This document shows, piece after piece, positions 1,995 to 24,428 of a DNA stretch of 38,203 bases. The stretch's first letter is position 1, and every line of letters starts with the position of its first letter. Origin of the DNA: Bacteroidales bacterium (lineage in GTDB: Bacteria > Bacteroidota > Bacteroidia > Bacteroidales > UBA12170); contig JAQIBR010000224.1 of assembly GCA_027858955.1 (NCBI GenBank), positions 1 through 38,203 on the forward strand. The letters are read 5' to 3'. A model generated the notes under the pieces. It did no database searches. It was not told the DNA's origin and was given only the letters and a program-made list of their open reading frames with translations. The position numbers were made by a program, and so were the translations under genes.

Positions 1995-2004
1995 AGAATA
2001 AATG

Positions 2005-2012
2005 TACTTTTG
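2005..2012 (+). promoter_or_regulatory. possible -7 element for the rhomboid pair
   Basis: TACTTTTG matches the Bacteroidota -7 consensus TAnnTTTG and lies 43 bases before the first rhomboid start. No TTG is seen at the right distance upstream, so this is weak. The genes could equally be read from the mutL promoter. Confidence 0.3.
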
Positions 2013-2055
2013 GCAAGTATTTTGCGTCAAACGCTTCACATAAAAAACTTGATTA

Positions 2056-3869: not shown

Positions 3870-3948
3870 ACTGAAACCTTAGTTTAAACACTTTCCATAA
3901 TATGGACAAGTATTATTAGTTTTTCATAGTTTTTATCAGATAAAATTC

Positions 3949-3980
3949 TTGTAGAAGGCATATGCTTGTGTGTATCTTTG
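3949..3980 (+). promoter_or_regulatory. Bacteroidota-type promoter, TTG-N21-TATCTTTG
   Basis: TTG at 3949-3951 and TATCTTTG at 3973-3980 are 21 bases apart, a good match to the -33/-7 elements of the Bacteroidota primary sigma factor. No gene starts close behind it. A strong terminator lies about 105 bases downstream, so the promoter would produce a short transcript. Confidence 0.5.
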
Positions 3981-3986
3981 TAAAAG

Positions 3987-4120
3987 AAATTCAAAATGGC
4001 TTTCGACAATTAAAAGCTTGAAAAAATAACCAATTACTCAGAAACTTTCTCATAGGGTTTACATAATAATTAGATAATGTTTATAAGAGCTGACTTGCAT
4101 GGTAGTCAGCTCTTTTTTTT
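3987..4120 (+). ncRNA. candidate small RNA between promoter and intrinsic terminator
   Basis: A consensus-like promoter (3949-3980) is followed by about 130 bases with no credible gene and then by a perfect terminator hairpin. The only small frame inside is a five-codon ATG frame (MAFDN) at 3996. The transcript is unlikely to be a leader for the next gene, because the terminator separates them and that gene has its own -7 element. No known RNA family was recognised; the ends are inferred from the promoter and terminator. Confidence 0.35.
4085..4120 (+). terminator. rho-independent terminator
   Basis: AAGAGCTGACT (4085-4095) pairs perfectly with AGTCAGCTCTT (4104-4114) around an 8-base loop, followed by an unbroken T run to 4120. 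It ends transcription from the rhomboid side and/or the candidate small RNA, just before the next gene. Confidence 0.85.
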
Positions 4121-4144
4121 ATCAACAAATTCGGACTATTTTCT

Positions 4145-4152
4145 TAATTTTG
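4145..4152 (+). promoter_or_regulatory. -7 element TAATTTTG next to the start codon
   Basis: TAATTTTG ends only four bases before the ATG at 4157, so transcription would start at or very near the start codon. No clear TTG is visible 19-21 bases upstream. It may mark a leaderless mRNA. Confidence 0.4.
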
Positions 4153-4156
4153 CTCG

Positions 4157-5266
4157 ATGGCAAAAACAAAAAACAAATATCGCTTTCGTCTTTTTCTTTG
4201 GGCTAATCAGTTTTTTGTTTCATTGCTGTTATTAACTTATTTAACGCCATTTGTTCCGCCCCAAATCTTTTGGCCTCTCTCCATTTTCGGCTTTACTTAT
4301 CCTATATTATTGTTAATCAATGTTTTATTTATCATTTTCTGGCTCCTTTCGTTAAATAAAAACCTACTATATTCATTGCTAGCTATTCTGATTGGATGGA
4401 ATACTTTAAATCTGCATTTTCAGCTAAAAAGCACAGATAATGAGATTGCTGAACAAGCATTTAAAGTGGTTTCATTTAATGTAAAAAATCTATCCAATAA
4501 CAACGATAAATATGCAGATATTAATGTTCGCTCATCTATTCTAAATTACATTGAAGAGCAAAATGCTCAGTTTATTTGCTTACAAGAGTTCCAAACATAT
4601 CCTACAAAAGAAATAAATACTGTAAAAGAATTTCAAGAACGACTTGGCATGCCCTATTACGCAGAAGCACGTTATGTACCAAGCAGTAAATTTAAGTTTG
4701 TAGATTTAATGATAATTTATTCCAAATATCCAATTATAAAGCAACAAGAGTTGCGTTTTTTGGATAAAGCTTACGCCTTGATCGTTGATATTGTATACAA
4801 TAATGATACTCTCCGATTATTTAATATCCATTTAGAATCAAATCACTTTGAAAGAAATGATTACGAGATTTTTAGCACTTCAGATAGTGGACTAAATGAG
4901 GAAACAAGTGGACAAGTATTGTCTTTACTTGAAAAAATTGCCCGCTACTCTAAGATTAGAAATTTACAGGTGAATCATATTCACGAATTGATAAAAAAGA
5001 CTTCCTGCCCAATTGTAATTTGTGGCGATTTTAACGATACTCCAGCAACTTATTCTTATCATAAACTTGCCAATAACCTTAAAGATGCTTTTGTTGAAAA
5101 AGGCAAAGGATATGGAAATACATACAATGGCAAATTACCACCAATGAGGATTGATTATATCCTAAGCGATACAATTTTTCAAATACATCAATTTGAAATT
5201 GAAAAAATCAATTTGTCAGATCATTATCCCATAATCAGTACTCTAAGTTTATCAAATGAGAATTAA
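4157..5266 (+). CDS. membrane-anchored endonuclease/exonuclease/phosphatase family protein
   Basis: The 369-residue protein starts with about three hydrophobic segments (residues 10-90), followed by an EEP-fold domain. Metal-binding and catalytic motifs are visible in order: VSFNVKNLS, FICLQEFQ, FNIHLESNH, VICGDFNDTPAT, MRIDYIL and NLSDHYPIIS. These match the exonuclease III/DNase I/inositol phosphatase superfamily, so the enzyme probably hydrolyses a phosphodiester or phosphomonoester outside or at the membrane. The substrate cannot be read from sequence; nucleic acid and phospholipid are both possible. It stands alone between a terminator and the uvrB promoter. Confidence 0.9.
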   Translation: MAKTKNKYRFRLFLWANQFFVSLLLLTYLTPFVPPQIFWPLSIFGFTYPILLLINVLFIIFWLLSLNKNLLYSLLAILIGWNTLNLHFQLKSTDNEIAEQAFKVVSFNVKNLSNNNDKYADINVRSSILNYIEEQNAQFICLQEFQTYPTKEINTVKEFQERLGMPYYAEARYVPSSKFKFVDLMIIYSKYPIIKQQELRFLDKAYALIVDIVYNNDTLRLFNIHLESNHFERNDYEIFSTSDSGLNEETSGQVLSLLEKIARYSKIRNLQVNHIHELIKKTSCPIVICGDFNDTPATYSYHKLANNLKDAFVEKGKGYGNTYNGKLPPMRIDYILSDTIFQIHQFEIEKINLSDHYPIISTLSLSNEN

Positions 5267-5317: not shown

Positions 5318-7321
5318 ATGGACTTTAAACTAACATCTACTTTCAAACCAACTGGCGATCAACCTCAGGCTATTCAGCAATTGATAGATGGCATAAAACG
5401 TGGTGATGATTCGCAAGTTCTTCTTGGAGTAACTGGATCTGGTAAAACTTTTACAATTGCCAATGCTATTCAAAAAATAAAGCAACCTGTACTGGTTCTC
5501 TCTCATAACAAAACGCTTGCCGCTCAACTTTATAGCGAGTTCAAGCAGTTTTTCCCTGACAATGCAGTTGAATATTTTGTTTCGTATTACGATTATTATC
5601 AGCCAGAAGCTTATCTACCAAGTTCTAACACATATATAGAAAAAGATTTAAGTATTAACGATGAAATTGAAAAACTTCGGCTAAGTACTTCTTCTGCTCT
5701 ACTTTCAGGTCGCAGAGATGTAATTGTAGTTTCATCAGTTTCATGCATCTATGGAATTGGAAACCCTGAAGATTTTACTGAAAATGTTATTTTATTAAAA
5801 ACAGGCGATAAAATCGAACGAAATAAATTACTCCTTCGGCTTGTGGATAGTTTATATTCTCGCACAGAAGTTCAATTTTCAAGAGGGACTTTTAGAGTAA
5901 AAGGTGATACTTTGGATGTTTATCCAGCATATGCTGATACTGCTTTCAGAATAGGATTCTGGGGTAATGAAATCGAAAGTTTGGAGCAGATCGATCCTGA
6001 AAATGGCAAAACAATAATCAGTTTAGAACAAATTACCATTTATCCGGCTAACATATTTGTGACAACCAAAGACAAAATGAAATCGGCAATTGTGGAAATT
6101 CAGAACGATCTATTTAAGCAAGTCGATTATTTTAAAGACACTCAAGATCATAGCTCTGCTAAACGTTTAGAAGATCGTGTTATATACGATATTGAAATGC
6201 TTAAAGAACTGGGATATTGCTCAGGAATAGAAAATTATTCTCGATACTTTGATGGTAGAAAAGCTGGAAGCAGACCATTTTGTCTCTTAGATTATTTCCC
6301 CGATGATTATTTAACTATTATTGACGAATCGCACGTAACAATTCCTCAAATAAGAGCAATGTATGGCGGCGACCGATCGCGCAAACAAAATTTGGTAGAA
6401 TATGGTTTTCGTTTGCCATCAGCCTTAGATAATCGCCCCTTAAAATTTGAAGAATTCGAAGCAATAAGTAATCAGACTATTTACGTAAGCGCTACTCCAG
6501 CCGATTACGAGCTTCAGAGAAGCGAAGGTGTTGTTGTTGAGCAACTTATCAGACCAACAGGCCTTCTAGACCCTCCAATAGAAATACGTCCCAGCCAAAA
6601 TCAAATTGATGATCTTTTAGATGAAGTGCAGAAAAGAATTGTTTTGAAAGAGCGTGTTTTGGTAACAACCCTTACTAAGCGAATGGCCGAGGAGCTAAGC
6701 AAATATTTTATCAATCTTAAGATTAAAACTGCATATATTCATTCTGATGTAGATACACTTGAACGAGTTGAGATTATGCAAAGTCTACGACAAGGTATTG
6801 TAGATGTACTTGTTGGAGTAAACCTTTTGAGAGAAGGATTGGATTTGCCAGAAGTGTCCTTAGTAGCCATTTTAGATGCAGACAAAGAAGGCTTTTTAAG
6901 ATCAGAGCGTTCGCTCACTCAAACTGCTGGTCGAGCAGCACGTAATCTAAACTCTTTGGTAATTATGTATGCCGATAAAGTTACAGCATCGATGCAAAAA
7001 ACCATAGATGAAACTAGTCGTAAAAGGGAAATACAGCTACAATACAATGAAAAGCACAATATTACACCGACAGCCATTGTTAAACCAATGACAAATGCTT
7101 TAGACGGGAGTATTGAAAGAATGGCTTATGTTGAACCTGATGCTCTTACAACCGCAGCCGATCCAGCTATTGCATATTTAGCCAAACCTAAATTGGAAAA
7201 GGCAATCCGTAAGATTAGAAGAGATATGGAAGCAGCAGTTAAAGAACTTGATTTTATCCAAGCTGCAAAACTTAGAGATGAACTATATAATCATCAAAAG
7301 CAGTTAGAAAAATTGACATAA
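5318..7321 (+). CDS. uvrB: excinuclease ABC subunit UvrB
   Basis: UvrB is the damage-verifying helicase-like subunit of nucleotide excision repair, loaded by UvrA and then bound by UvrC. Visible features are Walker A GVTGSGKTFTIAN (about residues 37-49), the beta-hairpin region YYDYYQPEAYLPSSNTYIEK, DESH in motif II (TIIDESHVTI), the C-terminal helicase motifs (VLVTTLTKRMAEEL, NLLREGLDLPEVSLVAILDADKEGFLRS, QTAGRAARN) and the UVR domain ending AAKLRDELYNHQKQLEKL, which contacts UvrC. Length, 667 residues, is normal and no key residue is missing. It has its own promoter element upstream. Confidence 0.98.
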   Translation: MDFKLTSTFKPTGDQPQAIQQLIDGIKRGDDSQVLLGVTGSGKTFTIANAIQKIKQPVLVLSHNKTLAAQLYSEFKQFFPDNAVEYFVSYYDYYQPEAYLPSSNTYIEKDLSINDEIEKLRLSTSSALLSGRRDVIVVSSVSCIYGIGNPEDFTENVILLKTGDKIERNKLLLRLVDSLYSRTEVQFSRGTFRVKGDTLDVYPAYADTAFRIGFWGNEIESLEQIDPENGKTIISLEQITIYPANIFVTTKDKMKSAIVEIQNDLFKQVDYFKDTQDHSSAKRLEDRVIYDIEMLKELGYCSGIENYSRYFDGRKAGSRPFCLLDYFPDDYLTIIDESHVTIPQIRAMYGGDRSRKQNLVEYGFRLPSALDNRPLKFEEFEAISNQTIYVSATPADYELQRSEGVVVEQLIRPTGLLDPPIEIRPSQNQIDDLLDEVQKRIVLKERVLVTTLTKRMAEELSKYFINLKIKTAYIHSDVDTLERVEIMQSLRQGIVDVLVGVNLLREGLDLPEVSLVAILDADKEGFLRSERSLTQTAGRAARNLNSLVIMYADKVTASMQKTIDETSRKREIQLQYNEKHNITPTAIVKPMTNALDGSIERMAYVEPDALTTAADPAIAYLAKPKLEKAIRKIRRDMEAAVKELDFIQAAKLRDELYNHQKQLEKLT

Positions 7322-7411: not shown

Positions 7412-7810
7412 ATGAAAAAAAAGATTTTTGCCATCGATGATGAACACAGTATTCGCTTTATCATTGAAAATACTTTTAAAAAAGAATTTGAAATTGATAC
7501 TTTTCTTAATGGCGAACAAGCATTAGCATCAATGCAAACCGGCGATATTCCTGATTTAATTATTTGCGATATCGAAATGCCGATTATGAACGGTTTCGAA
7601 TTTATCAAACAAGTTCGTGCTAGTGGTTTTTTCGATGATATTCCTCTACTTATGCTTTCGGGTAAAGAAAGCAGCAATGATAGAATTAAATGCTTTGAAA
7701 TTGGAGCCGACGATTATATCCTTAAACCTTTTAACCCAAAAGAACTACTTGCAAGGGTAAAAAGAAGATTAAAATCGATAGATTTATATTCAATGCGTAA
7801 GGGTTATTAA
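7412..7810 (+). CDS. single-domain response regulator (receiver only)
   Basis: The ORF track starts at a TTG (7343). The ATG at 7412 (MKKKIFAIDDE) is chosen because it begins exactly at the receiver fold and follows the -7 element. The 132 residues form one CheY-like domain: acidic pair D9/D10, phosphoacceptor D53 in LIICDIEMPIMNGF, S83 in LMLSGKES at the usual Thr/Ser position, and K105 in DYILKPF. There is no output domain, so it must act through a partner. The next gene begins 22 bases later and carries an inactive receiver domain on a sugar transferase, making that enzyme a natural candidate partner. No kinase gene is nearby. Confidence 0.93.
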   Translation: MKKKIFAIDDEHSIRFIIENTFKKEFEIDTFLNGEQALASMQTGDIPDLIICDIEMPIMNGFEFIKQVRASGFFDDIPLLMLSGKESSNDRIKCFEIGADDYILKPFNPKELLARVKRRLKSIDLYSMRKGY

Positions 7811-7832
7811 TCATCTCCAAAAACAAATAGTT

Positions 7833-9020
7833 ATGAGCGAAACGGAGGTTGGGAAAATATTATATATCGGGAAAAACCCGGATGTCATAGAGCAGCTTAG
7901 TAAAGCAAGAAACATAAAGTTAAGATGCAAGGATAACGGCATTGCTGCAATTCATTGGATCAGTGATAATATTGAAGAGTACGATAAATTGGATGCCGTT
8001 TTATGCTCACTCGGAGTGAAAGGAATGAATGCATTTTCGTTATACAATCATATGAGGCTTCGAAATCTCTTAAACAGGATTCCGTTTATTGTAATTGCTC
8101 AAAGCTTTGAATTTGATTCGCGTGCATTGGCACGATATCACAATGTGGACGACTATTATGCTCTGCCTTTGGATATTGAGCGCCTTGAAACAAGAGTAGA
8201 ATTTCTTAAAAAATACAAAGCAGAATATCTTGCATTAGACCTGAAAAAAACTTTCGAAAAATATAAGAATCAACCCTATAAAACACCATTCTTAAAACGC
8301 ACTTTCGATATATTAATGTCCGGCGGAGCAATACTTGTTTTGTCACCTATTTTACTTTTCACCGCATTAGCAATTCGCTTAGAATCAAAAGGAAAAGTAT
8401 TTTATTCTTCGAGGCGAGTAGGTGCAAATTTTCACGAATTTGATTTCTATAAATTTAGATCGATGTATCCAGATGCTGAAAAACGCTTAAAAGAAGTCGA
8501 GCATCTTAATCAATATCAGAAAAATACTGTTGGCGATGAATGTCCAAGGTGCAGACATCTCCCTGAAGATTTATACTGTTCTGCAGTTCTTAAACAGGAT
8601 GATAATACAGAGATTTGCGAATATTTCTATTTTAAAAGGAAAAATGCCAAAGCGGCATTTCTTAAAATTGAAAACGATCCACGAATTACTAAAGTCGGCA
8701 AGTTTATTCGAAATAAAAGCATAGATGAATTACCTCAACTTTTTAATATTTTGATAGGCGATATGTCGATTGTTGGAAATCGTCCACTACCTGTTAGCGA
8801 AGCTACAGCAATTACTAAATCGCGCTGGTCGCGAAGATTTGAGACAGCAGCCGGTTTAACTGGTTTGTGGCAGGTTGAACTTCGCGGCAAAGACGGGGAA
8901 ATGTCTGAAGAAGAACGTTTTGAACTTGATAATAAATACGCTAAAATTAATTCATTTTGGGGCGACATAATTCTTATTTTGCGCACATTAAAAATATTCA
9001 TCCAAAAAGGAAGCGTATGA
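7833..9020 (+). CDS. initiating sugar-phosphate transferase fused to a degenerate receiver domain
   Basis: Residues 1-135 follow the receiver pattern, but the phosphoacceptor position is S59 (LDAVLCSLGVKGMNAF) and the conserved Lys is lost (DDYYALPLD), so this is a pseudo-receiver. From about residue 150 the protein is a bacterial sugar transferase (WcaJ/WbaP/PglC core): TPFLKRTFDILMSGG membrane hairpin, FYKFRSMYPDAE, KVGKFIRNKSIDELPQLFNI, GDMSIVGNRPLP and GLTGLWQV. Such enzymes attach a sugar phosphate to undecaprenyl phosphate at the inner membrane and start a glycan. An insert between FRSM and the KVGK block carries four cysteines (C237, C240, C249, C262), which may bind metal. The TGA overlaps the next ATG. 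Confidence 0.92.
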   Translation: MSETEVGKILYIGKNPDVIEQLSKARNIKLRCKDNGIAAIHWISDNIEEYDKLDAVLCSLGVKGMNAFSLYNHMRLRNLLNRIPFIVIAQSFEFDSRALARYHNVDDYYALPLDIERLETRVEFLKKYKAEYLALDLKKTFEKYKNQPYKTPFLKRTFDILMSGGAILVLSPILLFTALAIRLESKGKVFYSSRRVGANFHEFDFYKFRSMYPDAEKRLKEVEHLNQYQKNTVGDECPRCRHLPEDLYCSAVLKQDDNTEICEYFYFKRKNAKAAFLKIENDPRITKVGKFIRNKSIDELPQLFNILIGDMSIVGNRPLPVSEATAITKSRWSRRFETAAGLTGLWQVELRGKDGEMSEEERFELDNKYAKINSFWGDIILILRTLKIFIQKGSV

Positions 9021-9859
9021 ATCGATTGTTATTTTTTAAATTTGTGCAAACTATTAAATTTATGCCAAAGTCTACAAAGAAACTATCCAGCTTTGTCAGC
9101 AAACAACTATCTTTTATATTGCTGATATTCATTATATTCTCCTTAAACCTGAATTCTCAAGAAATCAGTGTGTCTAACGAAAACGTTTTCAACCCTCTAA
9201 CAGATGATATCACCAAAAAAATTCCTCCTTTGGATGTTCTAATTGATTCCGCACTTATCAATTCGCACCGATTAAAATATTGGGATAAAGAAATTAAAAT
9301 TACAGAATATGAATTGAAATCGGTAAAGCGCGAATGGTCTGATGGCATTTTCTTTCAAGGCGAAGTAAAAGAAGGCACTTGGACAAGTTTGGTTTTTGTT
9401 CAAGACCAATATGGAAATGAAATAGGTACACTTGGCACCACTGATCAGGGGAGGTATTCAATTGGACTTGGGATGAGACTACCTCTATTGAGTCTTTTAG
9501 ATAGAGGAAATAGAATCAAGCTCGGCAAAATGAAGATTGAAAGAAATATTGAGAATATGCTTGAAGATCGTCAGGCTATTAGAGCCAATGTTATTAATTT
9601 ATTTAATGAGCTTTTGATTCAACAAAACATGTTGAAACTTGATATCGACAATATTGAATTTTCAGAACTTACTGCAGAAATGGCTGACAGGGAATTCCAG
9701 AATGGAAAAATTTCTCTTGGCGATTTATCACTAATTCGAGACCATTTGAATATTGCAAGATACCGATATGTTGATAGTAAAACCAGCTTCATTAAAGCAT
9801 ATGTTATGCTACAAGAGTTAACAGGTATTCAATTCAACGAACTTAATAATTGGGAATAA
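9017..9859 (+). CDS. short TolC-family outer membrane protein
   Basis: The ATG at 9017 overlaps the previous stop (ATGA) and has AAAAAGGAAG just upstream; the track's 8957 start lies inside the preceding gene. A long basic N-terminus precedes a hydrophobic signal segment (FILLIFIIFSLNLNSQ); a later ATG at 9062 is also possible. The mature part has TolC-like helical regions (DVLIDSALINSHRLKYWDKE; IRANVINLFNELLIQQNML; FQNGKISLGDLSLIRDHL). At 280 residues it is well short of a normal TolC (about 430-500), with one helical repeat rather than two. By context it may serve as, or help form, the outer-membrane exit for the polysaccharide. Confidence 0.75.
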   Translation: MNRLLFFKFVQTIKFMPKSTKKLSSFVSKQLSFILLIFIIFSLNLNSQEISVSNENVFNPLTDDITKKIPPLDVLIDSALINSHRLKYWDKEIKITEYELKSVKREWSDGIFFQGEVKEGTWTSLVFVQDQYGNEIGTLGTTDQGRYSIGLGMRLPLLSLLDRGNRIKLGKMKIERNIENMLEDRQAIRANVINLFNELLIQQNMLKLDIDNIEFSELTAEMADREFQNGKISLGDLSLIRDHLNIARYRYVDSKTSFIKAYVMLQELTGIQFNELNNWE

Positions 9860-12375
9860 TGGAAATCATTCAGTTTATAAAACTTATTCGCAAAAATCTT
9901 CTTCTTTTGATTCTTGTTCCTATTATTTTAGCCGGTCTAGTTTACTATGGTACACAATATCAGGATAAGTATTATGTTTCATCAGCTACCATCTATACTG
10001 GATTAGGCTCAGGTTTAACACTTGAAGCACAGGAAAATTCACGCGTAGATTACACTGCTACAAGAATGGAATTGGACAATATTTTGAATCTTTTCAAATC
10101 ACGCGAAATTCAACAAGAAGTAGCCTTAAGCCTTTTTATTCAAGGATTAGGTCTAAAAAGCTGGAATCCCCAATTTATGTCACGTCAATCTTATGACGAA
10201 TTTCAAGAACTTGTTCCTCAATACATTAAAGATATGGCTGTTCGGCCTGGAGCAGATAACTTTTCTAATTATATTATAAACGTACCACTCATTTTAAATG
10301 ATACTATTGGTTTAAAAAACAAACAACTTTTCACAAAAAATAGAACTTATAAAGTTCAGACAGGTGAATCTTTATATACAGTTTCTTCGAAACTTGGAGT
10401 TTCTGCTAGTGATCTGATGAAAATAAATACACTCACAAGCACTAATCTTAAAGCGGGTACAGAGCTTATATATGAAAGAGAAGAAATGCTAATCTTTAGC
10501 AAGGATAATGGAATAAATGACACTATTCCTATCTATATTCCAGATCCTAATTACTATTTATTAGCCGAAAATGACAGTCTTAGTTTTGCCCAAACCCTAA
10601 AACTATTTAAAGAATATTATGCTGATAATGACACGAATTACATTTATAAATTGTTGAATCATAAGCATAAATATTACAGCATTAAAGCTATTAACGAGCT
10701 TTCGGCACGACAGGTTCAAGGAAGCGATTTATTAAGACTAGCATATAGAACTACAGACCCAGGAATTTGTAAACAAACTTTACAATTCAGTATCGATGCT
10801 TTTGAGAGAAACTACAAAAAACTAAAGGAAAATCAAAGCGATAATGTTGTAAAATACTTTGAAGATAAAGTTACCGAAACCAGCATAAATCTTCAAGCAG
10901 CTGAAAATCGCTTATTGAAGTTTAATCAAGATAACAACATAATAAATTATTATGAGCAAACTAATCACATTTCTCAACAAAAACAACTTATAGAAAGTCG
11001 TTATTACGAGGAATTGATGAAATTCAAAGCTGCAGATTCTGTTTTAAAAATTCTGGATAAACAACTAGCTAATCAAAAAGGGATTGCCAAATTAAATACA
11101 GATATGATGGTGTATCGAAATAAGATATCCGATATCACCTATAAAATCGCAGTAAATGAGTTAAACGATTCATCCGATCCGAAAACGATTCAAGCTGTTA
11201 AAGATCTAAAAGCTGAACAAATTAATTTACGCAAACAAATTACTCAAAATATCGACAGTGTATTTGGGTTGCAATATTCTCATCAAGGTGTAAATACAAG
11301 CCAAATGCTGGCGCAATGGCTTCAGAATATGATAATTTATGAAGAGACAAAAGCCGGTATTGCTGCTCTGGAAGAAAGGCGAATCGAGTTTCAGCAAACC
11401 TATGAACAATTTGCACCTCTTGGAGCTAAATTATCCCGCATCCAGCGAGAAATAACCGTAAGCGAACAACAATATCTTTCCGTATTACATAGCCTCAACC
11501 TAGCTAAATTAAAGCAGCAAAACATCGAATTACAGGCCAATATCAAAACTGTTGATGCTCCTTATTTTCCAATTTCAGCAGAATCAACAAAACGTAAAAT
11601 TTTTATTGCAGCAGCTGGAATTTTAGGATTAATGCTCGTGCTATTTGTTATTCTAGTATTGGAATATTTCGACAAAACCATCAAAGATCCTTCCCGAGCC
11701 AAAAAATTAAGCGGTCTAGATATACTCTCTGTTTATCCTCTCTTGAAGAAAAAGAGTACACGTATCGATTACGATTTTATTACCAATCGATTAATGGAAC
11801 AGGCAGTACAAAAAATGCGATCCTTGCTTGAAGCTGAAAATATTCATCACAAAAAGCCTGTCAATATTTTGATTTTCAGCACACAAATGACAGATGGAAA
11901 GTCGCTAATTCAAGATGCTTTGACTGCTAAACTTAAAGAACTTGGATTCTCTGTATTATCAGCAAATTATCAACTACCCAATTATCGTCCAAAATTTTCA
12001 TTTTCAGCATCAAAGCAAGAAAAGCCTTTAGTTTATGATATAGAGTCAGACACTATCAACAAATCTAGCATACAGGATATTTTGGGTTCTGTACATGATA
12101 CTTCAAAATATGATTTCGGATTAATTGAAATTCCATCTGTAACTCATAATGCTTTCTCTACTGGATTGGTCAAAGATGCCGATTTTGGAATAATGGTTAC
12201 TCGTGCAAACAGATCTTGGACATCTTCAGATGAAAACAGCTTATCTGGAATTATGCAGTTTATGAAATTTGATCCTCTTATTTTATTAAACGGCGTACAA
12301 AACGAAGTTATTGAAATACTCTTGGGCGAATTACCTCGTGTAAGAAATAAATTTCGTCGTAAAATTAAAAAATAG
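9859..12375 (+). CDS. Wzz-type chain-length/co-polymerase protein with LysM domain and kinase-like tail
   Basis: The ATG at 9859 overlaps the preceding TAA (TAATG); the track's TTG start at 9850 is rejected. The 838 residues show an N-terminal membrane helix (LLLLILVPIILAGLVYYG), a Wzz-like periplasmic part, a LysM-like domain at about 164-205 (YKVQTGESLYTVSSKLGVSA), long coiled coils (about 330-560), a second membrane helix (about 580-603), and a cytoplasmic domain resembling BY-kinase/Wzc ATPases. Its P-loop position reads STQMTDGKSLI rather than a clean Walker A, Walker A'/B Asp residues are not evident, and there is no Tyr-rich tail, so kinase activity is unlikely. By family it should set chain length and link polymerisation to export. 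Confidence 0.85.
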   Translation: MEIIQFIKLIRKNLLLLILVPIILAGLVYYGTQYQDKYYVSSATIYTGLGSGLTLEAQENSRVDYTATRMELDNILNLFKSREIQQEVALSLFIQGLGLKSWNPQFMSRQSYDEFQELVPQYIKDMAVRPGADNFSNYIINVPLILNDTIGLKNKQLFTKNRTYKVQTGESLYTVSSKLGVSASDLMKINTLTSTNLKAGTELIYEREEMLIFSKDNGINDTIPIYIPDPNYYLLAENDSLSFAQTLKLFKEYYADNDTNYIYKLLNHKHKYYSIKAINELSARQVQGSDLLRLAYRTTDPGICKQTLQFSIDAFERNYKKLKENQSDNVVKYFEDKVTETSINLQAAENRLLKFNQDNNIINYYEQTNHISQQKQLIESRYYEELMKFKAADSVLKILDKQLANQKGIAKLNTDMMVYRNKISDITYKIAVNELNDSSDPKTIQAVKDLKAEQINLRKQITQNIDSVFGLQYSHQGVNTSQMLAQWLQNMIIYEETKAGIAALEERRIEFQQTYEQFAPLGAKLSRIQREITVSEQQYLSVLHSLNLAKLKQQNIELQANIKTVDAPYFPISAESTKRKIFIAAAGILGLMLVLFVILVLEYFDKTIKDPSRAKKLSGLDILSVYPLLKKKSTRIDYDFITNRLMEQAVQKMRSLLEAENIHHKKPVNILIFSTQMTDGKSLIQDALTAKLKELGFSVLSANYQLPNYRPKFSFSASKQEKPLVYDIESDTINKSSIQDILGSVHDTSKYDFGLIEIPSVTHNAFSTGLVKDADFGIMVTRANRSWTSSDENSLSGIMQFMKFDPLILLNGVQNEVIEILLGELPRVRNKFRRKIKK

Positions 12376-12414
12376 TCACATTTTAGTTTTTTTTTAACCA
12401 TCTTGGCTTATTAA

Positions 12415-13767
12415 ATGATAAAAAAAATCCTGCATATCGCCAAAGAAAAAAACATTCAATCCCTAGCCGGTAATGTTCTTAAGGCCGGGTTTGGCGTTTT
12501 AAATTTTATGGTGCTAACTCGCAGTTTCGAAAAAGAAATTTTTGGTGAATGGATATTGTATCTAACTGGTACGTCTTTCATCGAAATGTTTCGCTTCGGC
12601 ATTACAAGAACAGCCCTTATTCGCTTTTTAAGTGGAGCAAAAGTTGATGAACAAAAAAAATTGATAGGCTCTAATTGGTTAATAGGACTTATTACCAGCG
12701 TTTTTATTGCAATTCTTTTGTGGGTAATATTGTTCTTTTTCCCTGACCAAATTAAACAGTCGGGTTTTTACCTTTTCTTTAAATGGTATCCTATTTTAGC
12801 ATTTCTAAATCTACCATTAAACAATGCGCTTACCATACTACAAGCAAAACAATATTTTGGTCAGATATTTATTGTAAATACGCTTAATTCAGGACTGTTT
12901 TTTGTGGGTTTGGCCATAAATCTTTTCTGGTTAAAACTTGATTTAGTATATGTTATTTGGTTTCATTTAGGAATTGCTGCTCTGGTTTCACTTATTACTA
13001 TTATAGCAGGATGGGATGGCTCACGTTATATTAACAAGGCAGATAGATCGACAAATCGTACAATATTAAATTTTGGAAAATACACTACTTTAACACTTAT
13101 TGGAACAAATTTATTGAGAAGCGCCGATACATTTATTATTGCTTTAAGTCCATTAGGAACCGCAGCAGTTGCACTCTATAGTATTCCTTTAAGATTAACT
13201 GAATTCCTTCAAATTCCATTACGTAGCTTTGTGGCTACCGCATTCCCAAAAATGTCTAAAGCAAGTATCGAAAACGATCTTAAAATGGTTCGTTATTATT
13301 TTTACAGCTACTCAGGTTCAATTACCATATTGTTTATTCCGATCGCCATTTTCGGTTTTATTTTTTCCGATTTTTTTGTCTATTTTCTGGGCGGTAGTCA
13401 ATATGTTGGCATTGACCCTATTACTGGCGCCAGCACTTCCACTATTTTTAAAGTATTTGCTCTGTATGGAATCCTATTACCTATTGATAGACTAACCGGA
13501 GTAGGTTTGGACAGCATAAATAGACCCAAAAAGAATTTCTATAAAATTATATATATGGTAACGGCCAATATTATTGGTGATTTAATTGCCGTATTCGTCT
13601 TTAAATCGATAATGGGTGTAGCTGTAGTTACTGTTCTTTTTACATTAATAGGAGTCTTAGTAGGATTTAATTATTTAACCAAAGAATTGAAATTAAATCC
13701 ATTATTAATATGGAAAGAGGGCAAGAAAGTTTATTCTATGAAAATTAAAGAGTTTGTGGGAAAATAA
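12415..13767 (+). CDS. polysaccharide flippase-like membrane protein (Wzx/MATE-like)
   Basis: A 450-residue protein with about 12 hydrophobic segments. The N-terminal pattern (NIQSLAGNVLKAGFGVLNFM, then RSFEKEIFGEWILYLTG) is that of Wzx/RfbX O-unit flippases, which move lipid-linked repeat units across the inner membrane. It sits 39 bases after the co-polymerase and overlaps the next gene (TAATG). No soluble domains. The substrate cannot be told from sequence. Confidence 0.85.
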   Translation: MIKKILHIAKEKNIQSLAGNVLKAGFGVLNFMVLTRSFEKEIFGEWILYLTGTSFIEMFRFGITRTALIRFLSGAKVDEQKKLIGSNWLIGLITSVFIAILLWVILFFFPDQIKQSGFYLFFKWYPILAFLNLPLNNALTILQAKQYFGQIFIVNTLNSGLFFVGLAINLFWLKLDLVYVIWFHLGIAALVSLITIIAGWDGSRYINKADRSTNRTILNFGKYTTLTLIGTNLLRSADTFIIALSPLGTAAVALYSIPLRLTEFLQIPLRSFVATAFPKMSKASIENDLKMVRYYFYSYSGSITILFIPIAIFGFIFSDFFVYFLGGSQYVGIDPITGASTSTIFKVFALYGILLPIDRLTGVGLDSINRPKKNFYKIIYMVTANIIGDLIAVFVFKSIMGVAVVTVLFTLIGVLVGFNYLTKELKLNPLLIWKEGKKVYSMKIKEFVGK

Positions 13768-15476
13768 TGAAGAAAAATATCTGCAAAGGATTAAAGATAA
13801 AGATACTGAAACCGTTCATAGGGATTCTTATGCTTCATTTGTCAGTAAACATAATTGCCCAAAATGGCATCAATTGTGATTACGAAATAAGTTTGAGCAC
13901 AAGCGAAATAGTAAATACAACATTTCAAACCGGTGATACAATTTGCCTAATGGCAGGTGTTAGAGGTCCTCTCTATTTGAAAAACATTAATGGAACAGCT
14001 GAAAACCCCATAGTTATCATTAATAAAGGAGGACTATCCATTATTGATTCTGATTTAGCTTATGGAATAAAATTTGTCGAATGTAAAAATATTATACTCA
14101 GTGGAGCTGGTGACCAAGATATTCCTTATGGAATTTATATACGAGAAGTTAATAATGGATACGGACTTGGATTAGAAAATAAATCAAGCGACTTTGAGTT
14201 GGAAAAATTAGAGATCAGCAATACAAAATTTTCCGGAATTATTGCCAAAACTGACCCCGATTGTACATATACAGCGGTTCGCGACAGCTTTACAATGTAT
14301 AGCTTAGATATTCACGACAACTACATTCATAATACTGGTATGGAAGGAATGTATATCGGGAGCTCCTTTTTTCTTGGGCATTACATAAGTGATTGTGATG
14401 CTACTCTATTGCCGCATATTATTGATGGTGTTGAAATCTACAATAATCGTGTAGAATATACAGGTTGGGATGCAATTCAGGTCGGAAGTGCACTATATAA
14501 TTGTACTATCCGAGACAATCAGATTTATAAAGATTCTCAGGCTGAAGAAACTTATCAAATGTCAGGAATAATGATCAATACAGGAAGTAGCTGTAATGTA
14601 TATAATAACAAAATTATTGACGGGAAAGGAACTGGAATTCTGAATCAGGGAACAGGAGGACAAAAATTCTTTAATAACCTGATAGTTAATGCTGGACGTG
14701 ATTATGATTTTGAAAATCAAACGACAAAACAACAATTCGGAATATATTCAAAATACACCACCTATGTTCATCCTCCGGATAACTCTTTGCATTTTTACAA
14801 TAATACAATTATCAATCCCAAAAGTGATGGCATTAGGCTTGTTGATTCACCAAGTGAAATAAATCGAGTTATTAATAATATTATAATAAATCCGGGTGCT
14901 TATGAGTATTACCAAAGCTTAGGTTCAAATGAGTTTAATGCTGATGATGCATATATTCACAACTACTTGAATGCAAGTAATATACATTCAGCTAACAATA
15001 TTTCTGAGCGCTCTTCAAAAGAGCAATTTTTTGCTGATACTCTTAATCAAGACTATCATGTTACAAGCAGCATTTCCCCATCGGTTAATTGGGGAGTCGA
15101 CTTGAGCAGCTATGGTATTACATTCGATCTTGATAATAATAGTCGCCCTATTGAAAATTATTTTGATATTGGGGCTTACGAATTGCAAATTTCAACGCCA
15201 ATAATTTCAGTGATAAGCCCTGAACAAAAATTGATTATTTATCCTAATCCTGCAAATGAATTTTTACAATTGAGCTTTCATCTTGATAAAGCCCAAAGCC
15301 TAAATCTTAAATTTGCTAGTATGGAAGGCAAAGAAATCTTTTTGTTTCGAGATGTTTTTTTCAACCAAGGCGACAACAAAAAACAGTTTTCTATTAGTCA
15401 TCTCCCAAAAGGAGAATATATTATAGTTTTATATAACCAAGCGATTCGTTTAACTCAAAAGCTTCAAAAGATATAA
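13767..15476 (+). CDS. secreted right-handed beta-helix protein with T9SS sorting domain
   Basis: The 569-residue protein begins with a signal peptide (PFIGILMLHLSVNIIAQ). Residues about 90-400 show parallel beta-helix repeats rich in Asn and Gly (for example DIHDNYIHNTGMEGMYIGSS, VEIYNNRVEYTGWDAIQVGS, SCNVYNNKIIDGKGTGI), a fold typical of polysaccharide lyases and epimerases. The last 80 residues are a type IX secretion sorting domain: LIIYPNPANEFLQLSF to LPKGEYIIVLYN. It should therefore be exported across the outer membrane by the T9SS and held on, or released from, the surface. Its place between flippase and polymerase suggests action on the cluster's own glycan, for example trimming or epimerising it. 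Catalytic residues were not identified. Confidence 0.88.
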   Translation: MKKNICKGLKIKILKPFIGILMLHLSVNIIAQNGINCDYEISLSTSEIVNTTFQTGDTICLMAGVRGPLYLKNINGTAENPIVIINKGGLSIIDSDLAYGIKFVECKNIILSGAGDQDIPYGIYIREVNNGYGLGLENKSSDFELEKLEISNTKFSGIIAKTDPDCTYTAVRDSFTMYSLDIHDNYIHNTGMEGMYIGSSFFLGHYISDCDATLLPHIIDGVEIYNNRVEYTGWDAIQVGSALYNCTIRDNQIYKDSQAEETYQMSGIMINTGSSCNVYNNKIIDGKGTGILNQGTGGQKFFNNLIVNAGRDYDFENQTTKQQFGIYSKYTTYVHPPDNSLHFYNNTIINPKSDGIRLVDSPSEINRVINNIIINPGAYEYYQSLGSNEFNADDAYIHNYLNASNIHSANNISERSSKEQFFADTLNQDYHVTSSISPSVNWGVDLSSYGITFDLDNNSRPIENYFDIGAYELQISTPIISVISPEQKLIIYPNPANEFLQLSFHLDKAQSLNLKFASMEGKEIFLFRDVFFNQGDNKKQFSISHLPKGEYIIVLYNQAIRLTQKLQKI

Positions 15477-15479
15477 CCT

Positions 15480-15668
15480 ATGATTACTTGGCCTATTTTT
15501 CTAGCTTTTTTCTTAGCTGTAATTGCAGTTTATATTTCTATAAAACTTGAAGACGCAAAAGAAAATAAAAAACAGCAAGATATTGAAAATGAAAAAATTA
15601 AGATTGCCAATTTAGAAAAACGAAAGGATGCATCTGAAACAATTAATAACACCTTGAAAATTAGCTGA
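15480..15668 (+). CDS. 62-residue membrane protein with charged coiled-coil tail
   Basis: The ATG lies three bases after the previous stop, and its own TGA overlaps the next ATG (TGATG). It therefore sits neatly inside the operon and is very likely real. One membrane helix (WPIFLAFFLAVIAVYISI) is followed by a highly charged helix predicted to form a coiled coil (LEDAKENKKQQDIENEKIKI). No family was recognised. It could be a small partner of the polymerase or co-polymerase. Confidence 0.75.
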   Translation: MITWPIFLAFFLAVIAVYISIKLEDAKENKKQQDIENEKIKIANLEKRKDASETINNTLKIS

Positions 15669-17170
15669 TGCGAAACCCGTTTGAGAAGAATACAGGAGCA
15701 TTAAAATTGCAACATCCCATTGCAATTCTATTGATCATATTGGCATCACTTATCTTCGGCAAACTGATGTCTCTTGTTGGAATTCCGCTAATTGCAGCAC
15801 TTTTCGCTCTTCCTTTTATTCTAATCTTTATCAACCGAGTTCTTGACATCCCTAAAATTGCCCTTTTTACCATCCAAATTGCAGGTTATTTCATTATCGG
15901 AATTCAACGCTATACGGGACATATTCCTTTAGGGCTTACTGCAGATTTCTTATTTATTTTAGCCTTTGTCGCTCTTGTTTTTAAAAATTTTTATTCCGGT
16001 GTTAACTGGAAACCAATGCTTAAAGACATTAGCCTTTTAGCTGCTATCTGGATGGGCTGGTTAATATTTGAAATTATTAACCCTGAAGCAGTTAGTTTTC
16101 AAGCTTGGTTGACTGGCATGCGTAGCGTTGGGCTTTATTTCATTTTAGGAATACCTCTAGTATTACTTTTAATGCGAAACCCGAAAGATATTGAAATTTA
16201 TTTTTATATCTGGGGAGTCATGACTATTTTGACCACTCTTAAAGGAGCTATGCAACTAATTATTGGCTTGGATTCTTTTGAACAAAAGTGGTTGAATGAA
16301 GGCGCTTATTTAACACATGTGCTTTTTGGTAAACTAAGAGTCTTTTCATTCCTAAGCGATGCTGGTCAGTTTGGGGCTTCCCAAGCACATGCTTTTGTTA
16401 TTGGCAGTATTATTGCTTATGAAACAAAAATATTTAAAAAGCGGCTATTTTTCGGAATAGTTGCAATTGCCGGATTATACGGAATGCTAATCTCCGGCAC
16501 TCGAGGAGCAATTGCTGTGCCTGCACTTGGGTTTTTTACTTATCTTATTTTAGCAAAAAATATCCGCATTTTTTCTTTAGGAATGATTGCAGCAGCAGCA
16601 TTATATGTATTTTTCGCTTATACCTTTATTTTACAATCAAATTACCAAGTTAGACGAATGCGCACAGCTGTTAATTTCGAAGAGGATGCCAGTTTTCTTG
16701 TGCGATTAGAAAATCAGCGGATTCTGAAATCCTATCTGTCAACTCGTCCAATTGGTGGTGGTATAGGGCATGCCGGGATAAATGCTCAACAATACGATCC
16801 TGACGGTTTTCTGGCAAGCATTGCTACTGATAGCTGGTATGTTAAGATTTGGGCCGAAAATGGAGCGATAGGTTTAACATTGCACTTTTTTATCCTCTTC
16901 TACATTGTGCTTAAAGGAGGCTACTTAATAATGTTTAGAATTAAAGATAAAGAACTCAAGATAAGGATGATGGCAATTCTGAGTGGCATTATGGGAATTC
17001 TATTAGCAAATTATGGAAATGCAGTTATGGGTCAGTTCCCAACCTCAATTATTGTCTATTATGGTATGGGATTTTTGTTTTTATCTACTTATTATGATAA
17101 AATTGTTTTGATTGAGCGCGAACAAGGCAAAGATCCTTTTGACCTTTTCGGTAATTTGCTTAAAAAATAA
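15668..17170 (+). CDS. O-antigen polymerase/ligase family membrane protein (Wzy/WaaL-like)
   Basis: A 500-residue protein with about ten or more hydrophobic segments and a large extracytoplasmic loop (about residues 330-395: NYQVRRMRTAVNFEEDASFL, RPIGGGIGHAGINAQ). The SGTRGAIAVPALGFFTYLI segment matches the O-antigen ligase/polymerase family (PF04932-like). It either joins repeat units into a chain (Wzy) or transfers the chain to an acceptor (WaaL); sequence alone does not separate these. Given a Wzx and a Wzz-like protein in the same operon, polymerase is the better guess. It is the last gene before a weak terminator. Confidence 0.85.
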   Translation: MRNPFEKNTGALKLQHPIAILLIILASLIFGKLMSLVGIPLIAALFALPFILIFINRVLDIPKIALFTIQIAGYFIIGIQRYTGHIPLGLTADFLFILAFVALVFKNFYSGVNWKPMLKDISLLAAIWMGWLIFEIINPEAVSFQAWLTGMRSVGLYFILGIPLVLLLMRNPKDIEIYFYIWGVMTILTTLKGAMQLIIGLDSFEQKWLNEGAYLTHVLFGKLRVFSFLSDAGQFGASQAHAFVIGSIIAYETKIFKKRLFFGIVAIAGLYGMLISGTRGAIAVPALGFFTYLILAKNIRIFSLGMIAAAALYVFFAYTFILQSNYQVRRMRTAVNFEEDASFLVRLENQRILKSYLSTRPIGGGIGHAGINAQQYDPDGFLASIATDSWYVKIWAENGAIGLTLHFFILFYIVLKGGYLIMFRIKDKELKIRMMAILSGIMGILLANYGNAVMGQFPTSIIVYYGMGFLFLSTYYDKIVLIEREQGKDPFDLFGNLLKK

Positions 17171-17171
17171 G

Positions 17172-17194
17172 GTGTACGATAACGTACGTTTTTT
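17172..17194 (+). terminator. weak intrinsic terminator after the polysaccharide operon
   Basis: GTACG (17174-17178), loop ATAA, CGTAC (17183-17187), extendable by two G-T pairs, followed by a short T run. The stem is only five Watson-Crick pairs, so efficiency is uncertain. Confidence 0.45.
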
Positions 17195-17302
17195 ATCTTA
17201 TTTCGCACACTAAATTTTCCTAATAAAACAAACCTTTATTCATAACAATTTCACTAACAATACTTCATAGAAGGTGGCATAAATATTGATAAACGCGAGA
17301 CA

Positions 17303-19915
17303 ATGCGTGAATTTTTAAAACCACTATTACTAATCCTACTTGGTATACTATTGCTTACCGGAAATTTGTTTTCTCAAGAAATAAGAAAATATACTACTGC
17401 TCGAATCCTTGGAGATTCTCCAAAAATCGACGGGTTTCTTGATGACTCTGCTTGGGAACAAATTAATTGGGAAAATGACTTTACTCAATACCAACCATTT
17501 AATGGCGGAATAGCTGCCCAACAAACTGCATTTAAAATATTATACGATAATAATTTCCTATACGTGGCAATTCGCGCTTACGACAGTGTTCCCGAAGAAA
17601 TAGTAAGTCGTATGTCGCGCAGAGATGGTTTTCAAGGCGATTGGGTTGAAATTGCATTCGATAGTTATCACGATTATATTACTGCTTATTCCTTTACAGC
17701 AACAGTTGCAGGAGTTAAAAATGATGAATTATATACCAATGATGGTTTTGGTCACGACCGAACTTGGGATCCAATTTGGTATTTAAAAACAAGTATCGAT
17801 AAAGAAGGCTGGATAGCCGAAATAAAAATCCCTCTAACGCAATTAAGATTTAGCAAAGAAAGCAATCAAATTTGGGGATTGCAAGTAAAGCGATTTGTGC
17901 ATAGAAAAGAAGAACGAAGTCTTTGGCAACATATTCCAAATGAACAAGCTGGATATGTAAGCCGATTTGGCGAATTACATGGCCTAAAAGATATTAAACC
18001 AAAAAAACAATTTGATATAACTCCATATACAGTAGGCTCTTATGAATCATTCGAAGCTGAAGAAGGCGACCCTTTTACCGATGGCAAAGAAATCAATAGC
18101 CGAGTTGGCCTCGATGCGAAAATCGGATTAACTAATAACCTCACCTTAGACCTCACCATTAACCCCGACTTTGGACAGGTTGAAGCAGACCCGTCCGAAG
18201 TCAATTTATCTGCTTTCGAATCGTATTTTCGAGAAAAAAGAATGTTTTTTATCGAAGGTCGTAACATATACAGTTTTCCATTAAGATTGGGAGATGGACG
18301 TCATGCAACCGACAACCTGTTTTACTCTCGTCGAATAGGTAAAAGACCATCTGTTTATCCTGACGAATACTCATATATTGACTCACCAGAGAACACTTCT
18401 ATTTTAGGAGCCGCAAAAATTACCGGAAAAACCAAAAACGGAATTTCTATTGGTATTTTAGAAAGCGTTACTAATAAAGAATATGCTCGAATTTCTGATG
18501 CTAATGGTAACATTGATGAATACATTGTAGAACCACTTACAAACTATTTTGTGAGTCGAGTTGAAAAAGATTTTAACCAAGGAAATACCAAGCTTGGGGG
18601 AATGATTACTGCCACCAACCGCAAAATTGATGATGCTCATTTAGATATTTTACCTACAGCCGCATATACGGGAGGTGTTAACTTTGATCACGCCTGGAAC
18701 AATAGAAAATATAATTTCTCTGTAAAACTTATGGGTAGCCTTGTACAAGGCAATGAAAATGCGATTTCTGAACTTCAAACATCATCATCTCGATATTATC
18801 AGCGTCCAGATGCAAGCCATATGGAGTACAATCCCACTTTAACAAGTTTGAGTGGACATGCAGGATCTGCTTGGATTGGAAAGCTTTCCAACGGTGGTTG
18901 GAGCTATATTGCTTGGTTTAGTTGGGAATCGCCGGGTTTTGAATTGAATGATATTGGTTTTTTACGTTATGCGGATAATATGACTGAAATTGCTTGGGCT
19001 CAATATAATTTCCCAAAACCATTTAGTATTTTCCGCAGATTTAATATTGAAGTATCTCAAGCTAGCTCATTTGATTTCAGCGGTAAATATTTATCAACCG
19101 GTGGAGACTTGGGTATTGGAGGACAATTTACCAATTTTTGGTCTTTTAGATTTGGAAGCAGTTTCACTACTAATGCTCTAGAAAAAACGCTTCTGCGCGG
19201 CGGCCCGTTATTTCTAAGTCCTTCTGGATTAAATACTTATATACGCATTAATACAGACCGAAGAAAAAAAGTGAGCCTTTCCGGAACCTTATCATATTAT
19301 TGGGGAGCAGAAAATAATAAATCCCGAGAGAATTATTCCCTGGGCCTTACTTACCGACCTTTAAATCATATTCGCATTAGTCTAAATCCATCACTTAGGT
19401 TTAATAACAATCAGCTTCAATATATTGATGTTCTAAATATCGAAGGAAATGATAATTATTTCCTTGCAGAGATTGACCAAAAAACATTTGTAACTCAATT
19501 GCGAGTAGACTACAGTTTTACTCCCGATTTCAGCATTCAGCTTTATGCTCAACCTTTTATTTCAACAGGAGAATACAGCAATTTTAAATATGTAACCGAT
19601 CCTATTGCCGATCTTTATTCTGATCGCTTTCAGATTCTTCAACCCGACAATGATTTTGGTGTTGATATTGATAATGATGGAAATACTGATGGATATTTAT
19701 ATAATCCCGATTTTAAATTTTTACAGTTCCAATCCAATTTAGTTGCTCGATGGGAATATCGTCCGGGCTCCATAGTGTATTTGGTTTGGTCGCAAAATAA
19801 AACCGATTATCCTGATACTTACGCATTTAATTTTAATGACGATATGGAAGATATGTTCTCTGTTTTTCCACATAATGTTTTCTTAGTAAAATTATCCTAC
19901 CGAATACCTATTTAA
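17303..19915 (+). CDS. DUF5916 outer membrane protein with N-terminal CBM9-like domain
   Basis: The 870-residue protein begins with a signal peptide (LLLILLGILLLTGNLFSQE). Residues about 30-220 form a carbohydrate-binding family 9-like beta-sandwich (PKIDGFLDDSAWEQINWEND, LYVAIRAYD, DWVEIAFDSYHDY, WDPIWYLKTSI, GWIAEIKIPLTQLRF). The remainder is the DUF5916 region, rich in alternating aromatic/polar strands and ending in an aromatic-hydrophobic strand (VFLVKLSYRIPI), as in outer-membrane beta-barrels. Function is not established; surface glycan binding or uptake is plausible. A gap of 130 bases and a weak terminator separate it from the polysaccharide operon, so it may be independent. No strong ribosome binding site is visible. 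Confidence 0.88.
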   Translation: MREFLKPLLLILLGILLLTGNLFSQEIRKYTTARILGDSPKIDGFLDDSAWEQINWENDFTQYQPFNGGIAAQQTAFKILYDNNFLYVAIRAYDSVPEEIVSRMSRRDGFQGDWVEIAFDSYHDYITAYSFTATVAGVKNDELYTNDGFGHDRTWDPIWYLKTSIDKEGWIAEIKIPLTQLRFSKESNQIWGLQVKRFVHRKEERSLWQHIPNEQAGYVSRFGELHGLKDIKPKKQFDITPYTVGSYESFEAEEGDPFTDGKEINSRVGLDAKIGLTNNLTLDLTINPDFGQVEADPSEVNLSAFESYFREKRMFFIEGRNIYSFPLRLGDGRHATDNLFYSRRIGKRPSVYPDEYSYIDSPENTSILGAAKITGKTKNGISIGILESVTNKEYARISDANGNIDEYIVEPLTNYFVSRVEKDFNQGNTKLGGMITATNRKIDDAHLDILPTAAYTGGVNFDHAWNNRKYNFSVKLMGSLVQGNENAISELQTSSSRYYQRPDASHMEYNPTLTSLSGHAGSAWIGKLSNGGWSYIAWFSWESPGFELNDIGFLRYADNMTEIAWAQYNFPKPFSIFRRFNIEVSQASSFDFSGKYLSTGGDLGIGGQFTNFWSFRFGSSFTTNALEKTLLRGGPLFLSPSGLNTYIRINTDRRKKVSLSGTLSYYWGAENNKSRENYSLGLTYRPLNHIRISLNPSLRFNNNQLQYIDVLNIEGNDNYFLAEIDQKTFVTQLRVDYSFTPDFSIQLYAQPFISTGEYSNFKYVTDPIADLYSDRFQILQPDNDFGVDIDNDGNTDGYLYNPDFKFLQFQSNLVARWEYRPGSIVYLVWSQNKTDYPDTYAFNFNDDMEDMFSVFPHNVFLVKLSYRIPI

Positions 19916-20110: not shown

Positions 20111-20431
20111 TTAAACTATCGATACGCTATTCAATTCTATGTTGAAATTTATTTTTGCACCTAATGCTCTGAAAACTTTCAAAATTGTCTCAAAACGTGC
20201 ATCTGTTAGATTATTTTCAATCTTAGATATTTGAGCTTTTTTCACGCCTACCATTTTCCCAAGTTGTTCTTGAGTTAAATGCTTTTCTTCTCTTATTTTT
20301 TTTATAGTATAACCTAAAATATCAAGTCGCAATTCTTGCTCAAAATAATTCCGATCTTCAGTTCCTACAACGCCAACATGTTCGTCAATCATATCATCCA
20401 AACTTTTTCTTCTTTTTTTTTCGCTTTTCAT
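20111..20431 (-). CDS. HigA-like antitoxin, XRE helix-turn-helix
   Basis: A 106-residue protein with a Cro/cI-type helix-turn-helix at about residues 38-80 (IKKIREEKHLTQEQLGKMVG, KKAQISKIENN). As the second gene after a RelE/HigB-like toxin with a 4-base ATGA overlap, it fits the HigBA layout, in which the toxin gene comes first. The antitoxin should bind the toxin and repress the operon through the palindrome at 20783-20798. Confidence 0.88.
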   Translation of the reverse strand: MKSEKKRRKSLDDMIDEHVGVVGTEDRNYFEQELRLDILGYTIKKIREEKHLTQEQLGKMVGVKKAQISKIENNLTDARFETILKVFRALGAKINFNIELNSVSIV

Positions 20432-20775
20432 TTCTCTTCGTTTTTTTGTTCGAAATAAATTTTCCGAATTCCATCGGCTTTTTTAATCTCGCTTTTCAAT
20501 GTTTTTTTGGTCTTCTTAATAATTCCGTGAGTTGCTATTACTAACGTTTCTTCTTTATCACTCTTATCCCAAAAGGCAAAGAGTCGATAATATTTTTTAT
20601 CATATAGCGTCCGAAACTCCCAAATAAAATCTGTTAGTTTCTTGAATAATTCCGGGTCATTTATCATTTGGGACTTTCTTATGTTATAATAAATCTTTCG
20701 ACGAGTTTTTGAATCAAGAGAGTCCATAAAACTTATTGCTTCATCCAAAAAATCCACATCAAATTTTTCATTCAT
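20428..20775 (-). CDS. HigB/RelE-like (Gp49 family) toxin
   Basis: The track start (20802) lies within the promoter, so I use the Met at 20775 (MNEKFDVDFL), giving 115 residues. The pattern IWEFRTLYDKKYYRLFAFWD followed by LVIATHGIIKKTKKT and a basic, Lys-rich C-terminus matches the phage-derived Gp49/HigB group of the RelE superfamily, which cleaves mRNA on the ribosome. No break is seen, and the basic and aromatic residues of the core are present. It is the first gene of a two-gene operon with the antitoxin. It can be taken as an intact module. Confidence 0.87.
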   Translation of the reverse strand: MNEKFDVDFLDEAISFMDSLDSKTRRKIYYNIRKSQMINDPELFKKLTDFIWEFRTLYDKKYYRLFAFWDKSDKEETLVIATHGIIKKTKKTLKSEIKKADGIRKIYFEQKNEEK

Positions 20776-20782
20776 ACAAATA

Positions 20783-20798
20783 ATCTTTGTACAAAGAT
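20783..20798 (-). promoter_or_regulatory. palindromic operator of the higBA operon
   Basis: ATCTTTGTACAAAGAT is a perfect 16-base palindrome. It overlaps the -7 element and lies 7 bases before the toxin ATG, exactly where antitoxin autorepression is expected. Confidence 0.72.
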
Positions 20799-20822
20799 AC
20801 AAGTTTCTTTTTCAGGAAACAA
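20792..20822 (-). promoter_or_regulatory. higBA promoter, TTG-N20-TATCTTTG
   Basis: On the - strand, TTG (20822-20820) is followed after 20 bases by TATCTTTG (20799-20792). This fits the Bacteroidota consensus and places transcription start a few bases before the ATG at 20775. It also argues against the ORF-track start at 20802. Confidence 0.7.
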
Positions 20823-24339: not shown

Positions 24340-24361
24340 AAATTTATCTTTATAGTACAAA

Positions 24362-24390: not shown

Positions 24391-24428
24391 ATCTTCTTAT
24401 TTATTTTCGTCCATTATTCTTCTTGCTA

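Follow-up and report, generated by a model that had tools for sequence, protein, structure and literature searches.

We propose that an eight-gene operon in a Bacteroidales draft genome is probably the export half of a Wzx/Wzy-dependent surface-polysaccharide system, in which an oligomer of a half-length TolC-like protein would replace Wza at the outer membrane and a T9SS-delivered enzyme would modify the polymer. The window, i.e. the whole stretch of DNA analysed here (38,203 nucleotides), makes up the whole of contig G000:C160 in a draft genome of 3.46 Mb, and the relatives that have the gene order in common are likewise labelled Bacteroidales.

Gene content and genomic setting

The earlier note on this DNA had described eight genes running from a regulator to a polymerase, and a check of open reading frames and Pfam families found all eight in that order, on the same strand, between positions 7412 and 17170 (Table 1). 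Neighbouring genes overlap by 1–4 bases at four junctions (transferase/TolC-like, TolC-like/Wzz-like, flippase/beta-helix and small membrane protein/polymerase), which makes co-transcription of the eight-gene operon likely; the true start of the TolC-like reading frame may be the methionine at 9062. The presence of PF02397, PF13440 and PF04932 in a single operon supplies the Wzx/Wzy trio of initiating transferase, flippase and polymerase. A Pfam scan of nine proteins from 7412 to 19915 found no glycosyltransferase and no Wza family, in line with what had been claimed for the operon. The 62-aa open reading frame has no Pfam match; its homologues lie in L038 and L045 (both in one genome), L046 and L047, at 45–53%, and these are also the loci in which a DUF5916/CBM9 gene stands directly 3' of the operon, a gene that is absent in L048 and L049.

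Table 1. Features of the operon and its flanks, in positions of the window
Feature	Position	Strand	Remarks
mutL, two rhomboids, EEP phosphatase	180-5266		conserved 5' flank along with uvrB
uvrB	5318..7321	+	conserved 5' neighbour; same flank in L041, L058, L059, L060, L061, L063, L073
Stand-alone CheY-like response regulator, no output domain	7412..7810	+	PF00072 only
Initiating phosphoglycosyl transferase	7833..9020	+	PF02397; receiver-like N-terminus, four-Cys insertion, Bac_transf with DELPQ motif
Half-length TolC-like outer-membrane channel protein (predicted), one OEP repeat	9017..9859	+	PF02321
Wzz/Wzc-like co-polymerase, periplasmic LysM, degenerate kinase domain	9859..12375	+	LysM; weak GNVR
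Wzx-type flippase	12415..13767	+	PF13440 (Polysacc_synt_3)
Right-handed beta-helix protein, T9SS type A sorting domain	13767..15476	+	PF13229 (Beta_helix), PF18962 (Por_Secre_tail)
Small membrane-protein ORF, 62 aa	15480..15668	+	relatives in three other genus genomes
Wzy/O-antigen ligase family polymerase	15668..17170	+	PF04932 (Wzy_C); position conserved
DUF5916/CBM9 protein	17303..19915	+	PF19313, PF06452; operon membership uncertain

Conservation across relatives

How widely is this arrangement kept? Strong relatives of the Wzz-like protein (E at most 1e-40) are encoded in 68 of the 393 genomes sampled in the order, and further relatives occur in Winogradskyella and another flavobacterium (Flavobacteriaceae). 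The order response regulator, initiating transferase, TolC-like protein, Wzz-like protein, (flippase) and polymerase recurs in about 40 loci; given this recurrence, the gene set lies far beyond chance, and the conservation that the earlier note had named as a check on its proposal is present. A phylum-wide sample was positive in 13 of 297 genomes, and in 12 of the 14 loci the TolC-like gene is the immediate 5' neighbour of the Wzz-like one. Besides the operon type closest to that of the window, a second group was defined by Wzz-like E values between 1e-46 and 1e-78. A search of G006, G007 and G010 for the operon found none, G010 giving only a weak LysM match. The flank mutL–rhomboid–rhomboid–phosphatase–uvrB often adjoins the conserved loci, and this uvrB flank marks the ancestral position of the locus.

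Glycosyltransferases on a separate contig

In the relatives, the first to fourth reading frames behind the polymerase gene are largely glycosyltransferases, 64 of 131 matching PF00535; in the loci of the window's genus that were examined, no glycosyltransferase stands beside the operon. For five adjacent genes on another contig of the source genome (G000:C143:16410-21467), the best matches are precisely the relatives' genes behind wzy, at 57–69% identity. These five encode three GT2-type enzymes, one glycosyl-transferases-group-1 enzyme and one hexapeptide transferase, and the third GT2 gene is found in nine of 11 genomes of the genus, including all eight that carry the operon. The glycosyltransferases of a Wzx/Wzy pathway are therefore present, in the form of this orthologous module outside the operon. 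It had been suggested that enzymes with genes outside the operon add the sugars, and this appears to be so; the lack of glycosyltransferases had also been read as a trait of the export route itself, and here we differ. To judge from the comparison of loci, the lack reflects a split, at genus level, of a locus that relatives keep whole, not new chemistry. The operon still stands next to uvrB, its ancestral site, so it is presumably the enzyme module that moved.

The module is flanked by a peptidase M49 gene and a YchF gene, both of which we regard as unrelated neighbours. Contig C143 carries another glycosyltransferase cluster (31269-39999), but this was rejected as a partner, its glycosyltransferase-type genes having at most about 35% identity to the genes of relatives or no match. 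G006 carries the glycosyltransferase module without the operon; an in-frame TAA had flagged its GT2 gene as broken, a reading that was rejected on finding a 401-aa open reading frame. Additionally, a second lineage, from another family, has the export operon without glycosyltransferases alongside (L056 and L062, of G260 and G168, respectively), and in these two genomes the beta-helix gene adjoins a peptidase M20 gene.

A half-TolC gene in the position expected of Wza

The TolC-like gene adjoins the Wzz-like gene, which is the place where Wza would be expected. The earlier note described its product as a short TolC-like protein but did not remark that it is only half a TolC. All 44 TolC-like homologues match PF02321 (OEP), and each is long enough for one repeat only, full-length members having about 227–302 aa and a single repeat about 187 residues. 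In other words, there is one repeat per chain rather than the two tandem repeats of the TolC family; likewise, the half-TolC profile aligns just once, to TolC 208–393 or OprM 47–217. An AlphaFold model (mean pLDDT 88) predicts the succession helix, strand, strand, long helix, helix, with a beta-hairpin of two 19-residue strands, and its Foldseek matches are OprM, CmeC and TolC. TolC is a trimer of two-repeat chains, so that six half-chains would be expected to rebuild the tunnel with its usual 12 strands and 12 helices. Such a half-TolC oligomer may be the pore that replaces Wza.

Ten Wza proteins from relatives served to build profiles, and these recovered 10 of 10 in a positive control but found no Wza (OPX, Poly_export) among the 876 open reading frames of these loci. 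A complete Wza-type locus next to this one, which the earlier note had regarded as fatal to its idea, is thus absent as far as the contigs reach. The one Poly_export match of the source genome is on contig C115, beside its own Wzz (L081:639-6609); this Wza has 1011 aa with SLBB repeats, and the small open reading frames between the two genes resemble, by eye, S23 and GIY-YIG proteins.

The co-polymerase, the response regulator and the initiating transferase

Among the 44 Wzz-like homologues, GNVR was matched in 29, LysM in 24 and Wzz in 23, so LysM is common in this protein but not required. The cytoplasmic domain has kept its Walker A motif (the ATP loop); the A' DxD motif typically reads LNY, and Walker B reads EIP, with Asp replaced by Glu. 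The last 30 residues contain at most three tyrosines, whereas Wzc proteins from the same genomes or from related ones end in a YGYGYY-type tyrosine tail. The motif set of a BY-kinase is accordingly not present in the Wzz-like protein.

What had been called a regulator is indeed a response regulator, but it is a stand-alone CheY-like receiver with no output domain. Its phospho-acceptor Asp is present in all six response regulators aligned. The transferase, too, begins with a receiver-like domain, which hhalign matches at 99.7% to the response regulators of the locus itself; in this domain the acceptor Asp is replaced by Glu in 27 of 40 homologues and by Ser or Ala in the close relatives of the window's protein. 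A stand-alone receiver together with a transferase whose own receiver is locked suggests control at the protein level. The transferase also contains a conserved four-cysteine insertion (CPRC...C...C), found in most of the first operon group and in none of the second, that looks like a candidate metal site. In several relatives, a methyltransferase gene and a gene for a TPR-hybrid histidine kinase with a receiver lie behind the beta-helix gene (L149:2310-5748); the stand-alone response regulator may have its signalling partner in this kinase.

The beta-helix protein

The idea that a T9SS-delivered beta-helix protein belongs to this system is borne out by its distribution. Strong homologues were found in 43 of 393 genomes, namely in 38 of the 45 that carry the operon type closest to the window's and in 5 of the 348 others (Fisher P about 1e-40, a value overstated by the relatedness of the genomes). 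By hand count, the gene is present in 20 of the 24 taxonomic families that have the closest operon type; in the second group it was found in one genome only. Its position also speaks for the association: in relatives it lies behind the glycosyltransferases, about 10–23 kb from the operon (about 16 contigs); in the window's genus it is one of the operon genes. In six genomes (G168, G260, G215, G318, G109 and G145) the gene has unrelated surroundings. T9SS abundance alone was considered as the cause of this distribution among loci and judged insufficient, although sorting domains are fewer in the second group.

What might such a protein do? A beta-helix domain is present in 34 of 34 homologues and a T9SS tail in 32 of 34; the window's own protein has the sorting domain of T9SS cargo (PF18962, 5e-10). 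Foldseek matches of its model (pLDDT 87) are glycan-active beta-helices and T9SS sorting domains, and those of the beta-helix span lyases, hydrolases and epimerases, with weak fold scores. The residues E193, D235, Q238, R172 and D467 are invariant. We infer that the protein acts on the glycan at the cell surface as an enzyme.

Proposed pathway and alternative readings

In the pathway that we envisage, the initiating transferase would put the first sugar on undecaprenyl phosphate, the five C143-encoded enzymes would extend and decorate the repeat unit, and the flippase would turn the unit over for polymerisation by Wzy. The Wzz-like protein would control chain length and bridge the periplasm, in this lineage with a LysM hold on peptidoglycan; the polymer would leave through the half-TolC oligomer; and outside the cell the T9SS-delivered beta-helix protein would cut, epimerise or otherwise modify it. 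In this scheme, the chemistry of the polymer too is something that we infer.

Is the half-TolC protein itself the exit? It could instead assist the Wzz-like protein, as a periplasmic or accessory component, while the polymer exits by way of a Wza from another locus (in this genome, the 1011-aa SLBB protein of contig C115). We find this unlikely, although 62 of the 68 operon-positive genomes do carry a Wza gene somewhere and that of the source genome adjoins a Wzz. Most of the remote Wza genes examined have a partner of their own: the C115 gene is followed by its Wzz, and in other operon-positive genomes Wza genes of ~265 aa adjoin Wzc-type genes of ~820 aa. Moreover, six of the 68 genomes show no Wza gene, among them G088 and G241, both 95% complete and with the operon present, and the predicted hairpin of the half-TolC model has strands such as a barrel would need.

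The nature of the product can be questioned too. It is conceivable, if improbable, that a glycolipid or O-antigen-like anchor is made, comparable to the A-LPS for T9SS cargo of Porphyromonas, rather than a released polymer, and that the Wzy-family gene encodes a ligase; PF04932 spans both polymerases and ligases, and the main operon group is usually accompanied by a T9SS cargo gene. Against this, the loci pair a Wzc-like co-polymerase with an outer-membrane channel protein, an arrangement that goes with secreted polymers and not with chains linked to lipid A, and second-group loci occur also where a genome has few T9SS sorting domains or none. We think it very improbable indeed that the operon is a decaying remnant, its glycosyltransferases lost and its export genes unused. 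The genus loci examined do have an operon without a neighbouring glycosyltransferase, but its genes are open and conserved among these loci at 45–91% identity, and with the orthologous module kept in 8 of 8 operon-positive genomes of the genus, the relocation largely refutes decay.

Relation to known systems

The closest comparison is with the group 1 capsule and colanic acid systems of E. coli (Wza, Wzc), which share with our export system the initiating transferase, flippase, polymerase, Wzz/Wzc-like co-polymerase and glycosyltransferases. Unlike those systems, the present loci have no Wza and a half-TolC gene in its position, the co-polymerase is without the DxD motif and tyrosine tail of Wzc, and this genus keeps its glycosyltransferases on another contig. 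Two defining features of Wza–Wzc exporters thus fail, so we class the system as a variant of the Wzx/Wzy pathway, and it is apparently one as yet undescribed. A literature search found no description of the layout, which is weak evidence as subscription journals were mostly outside its coverage, and no experiment on any member of the system.

Parts of the arrangement have parallels elsewhere. TolC and OprM of efflux pumps and type I secretion have the same repeat fold (AlphaFold, Foldseek, profile search), but with two repeats; here there is one, no efflux pump or adaptor was seen alongside, and the neighbour is nearly always Wzz-like. The EpsX–EpsY system of Myxococcus (PMC9601211; OPX classes, PMC9603273) is likewise a Wzx/Wzy system without a complete Wza as exit; however, it requires a short OPX protein and an 18-strand barrel, whereas here the channel is of TolC type and the composite of short OPX protein plus 16–18-strand barrel is not found, the loci having no OPX protein. 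Sanxan of Sphingomonas sanxanigenens (PMC5399355) is a further case of one polysaccharide's genes scattered over a genome, but its export relies on Wza and Wzc homologues. The beta-helix protein has its sorting domain in common with T9SS type A cargo (Pfam, 32 of 34 homologues; Foldseek) and its fold in common with the AlgE4 epimerase, GH136, VexL and tailspikes; identity to AlgE4, GH136 and VexL is 11–13%, with weak fold scores, and here the protein is tied to a polysaccharide export locus.

Three routes for polysaccharides across the outer membrane have been set out, i.e. Wza-type, OPX plus barrel, and synthase barrel, none of them TolC-type (PMC9601211), and TolC is not mentioned in PMC9601211 or PMC9603273. 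We see an even chance that these loci represent a fourth, OPX-free route, in which single-repeat TolC subunits (probably six) sit on a kinase-less Wzc-like protein, often together with a T9SS glycan enzyme, and that the half-TolC protein is a present-day version of the ancestral half whose duplication gave the two repeats of TolC (PMC8277102). If the half-TolC protein is the exit, Wza-based annotation of capsules and biofilm polymers overlooks a whole class in many Bacteroidota. Additionally, the relocated module provides a concrete list of enzymes for testing in the genus, and through the T9SS enzyme two surface systems that are usually studied separately become linked.

Other features of the window

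Downstream of the DUF5916/CBM9 gene lie two small toxin-antitoxin-like units. In the first (20111-20802), a Gp49/DUF891 protein is paired with an HTH protein; the second consists of a further HTH protein (21150-21467). The stretch 22121-26404 encodes a RhuM-family protein and a DUF1016/YhcG PDDEXK nuclease, adjoined by a 614-aa protein without a Pfam match; between 24 and 28 kb the GC content drops to about 0.28–0.30.
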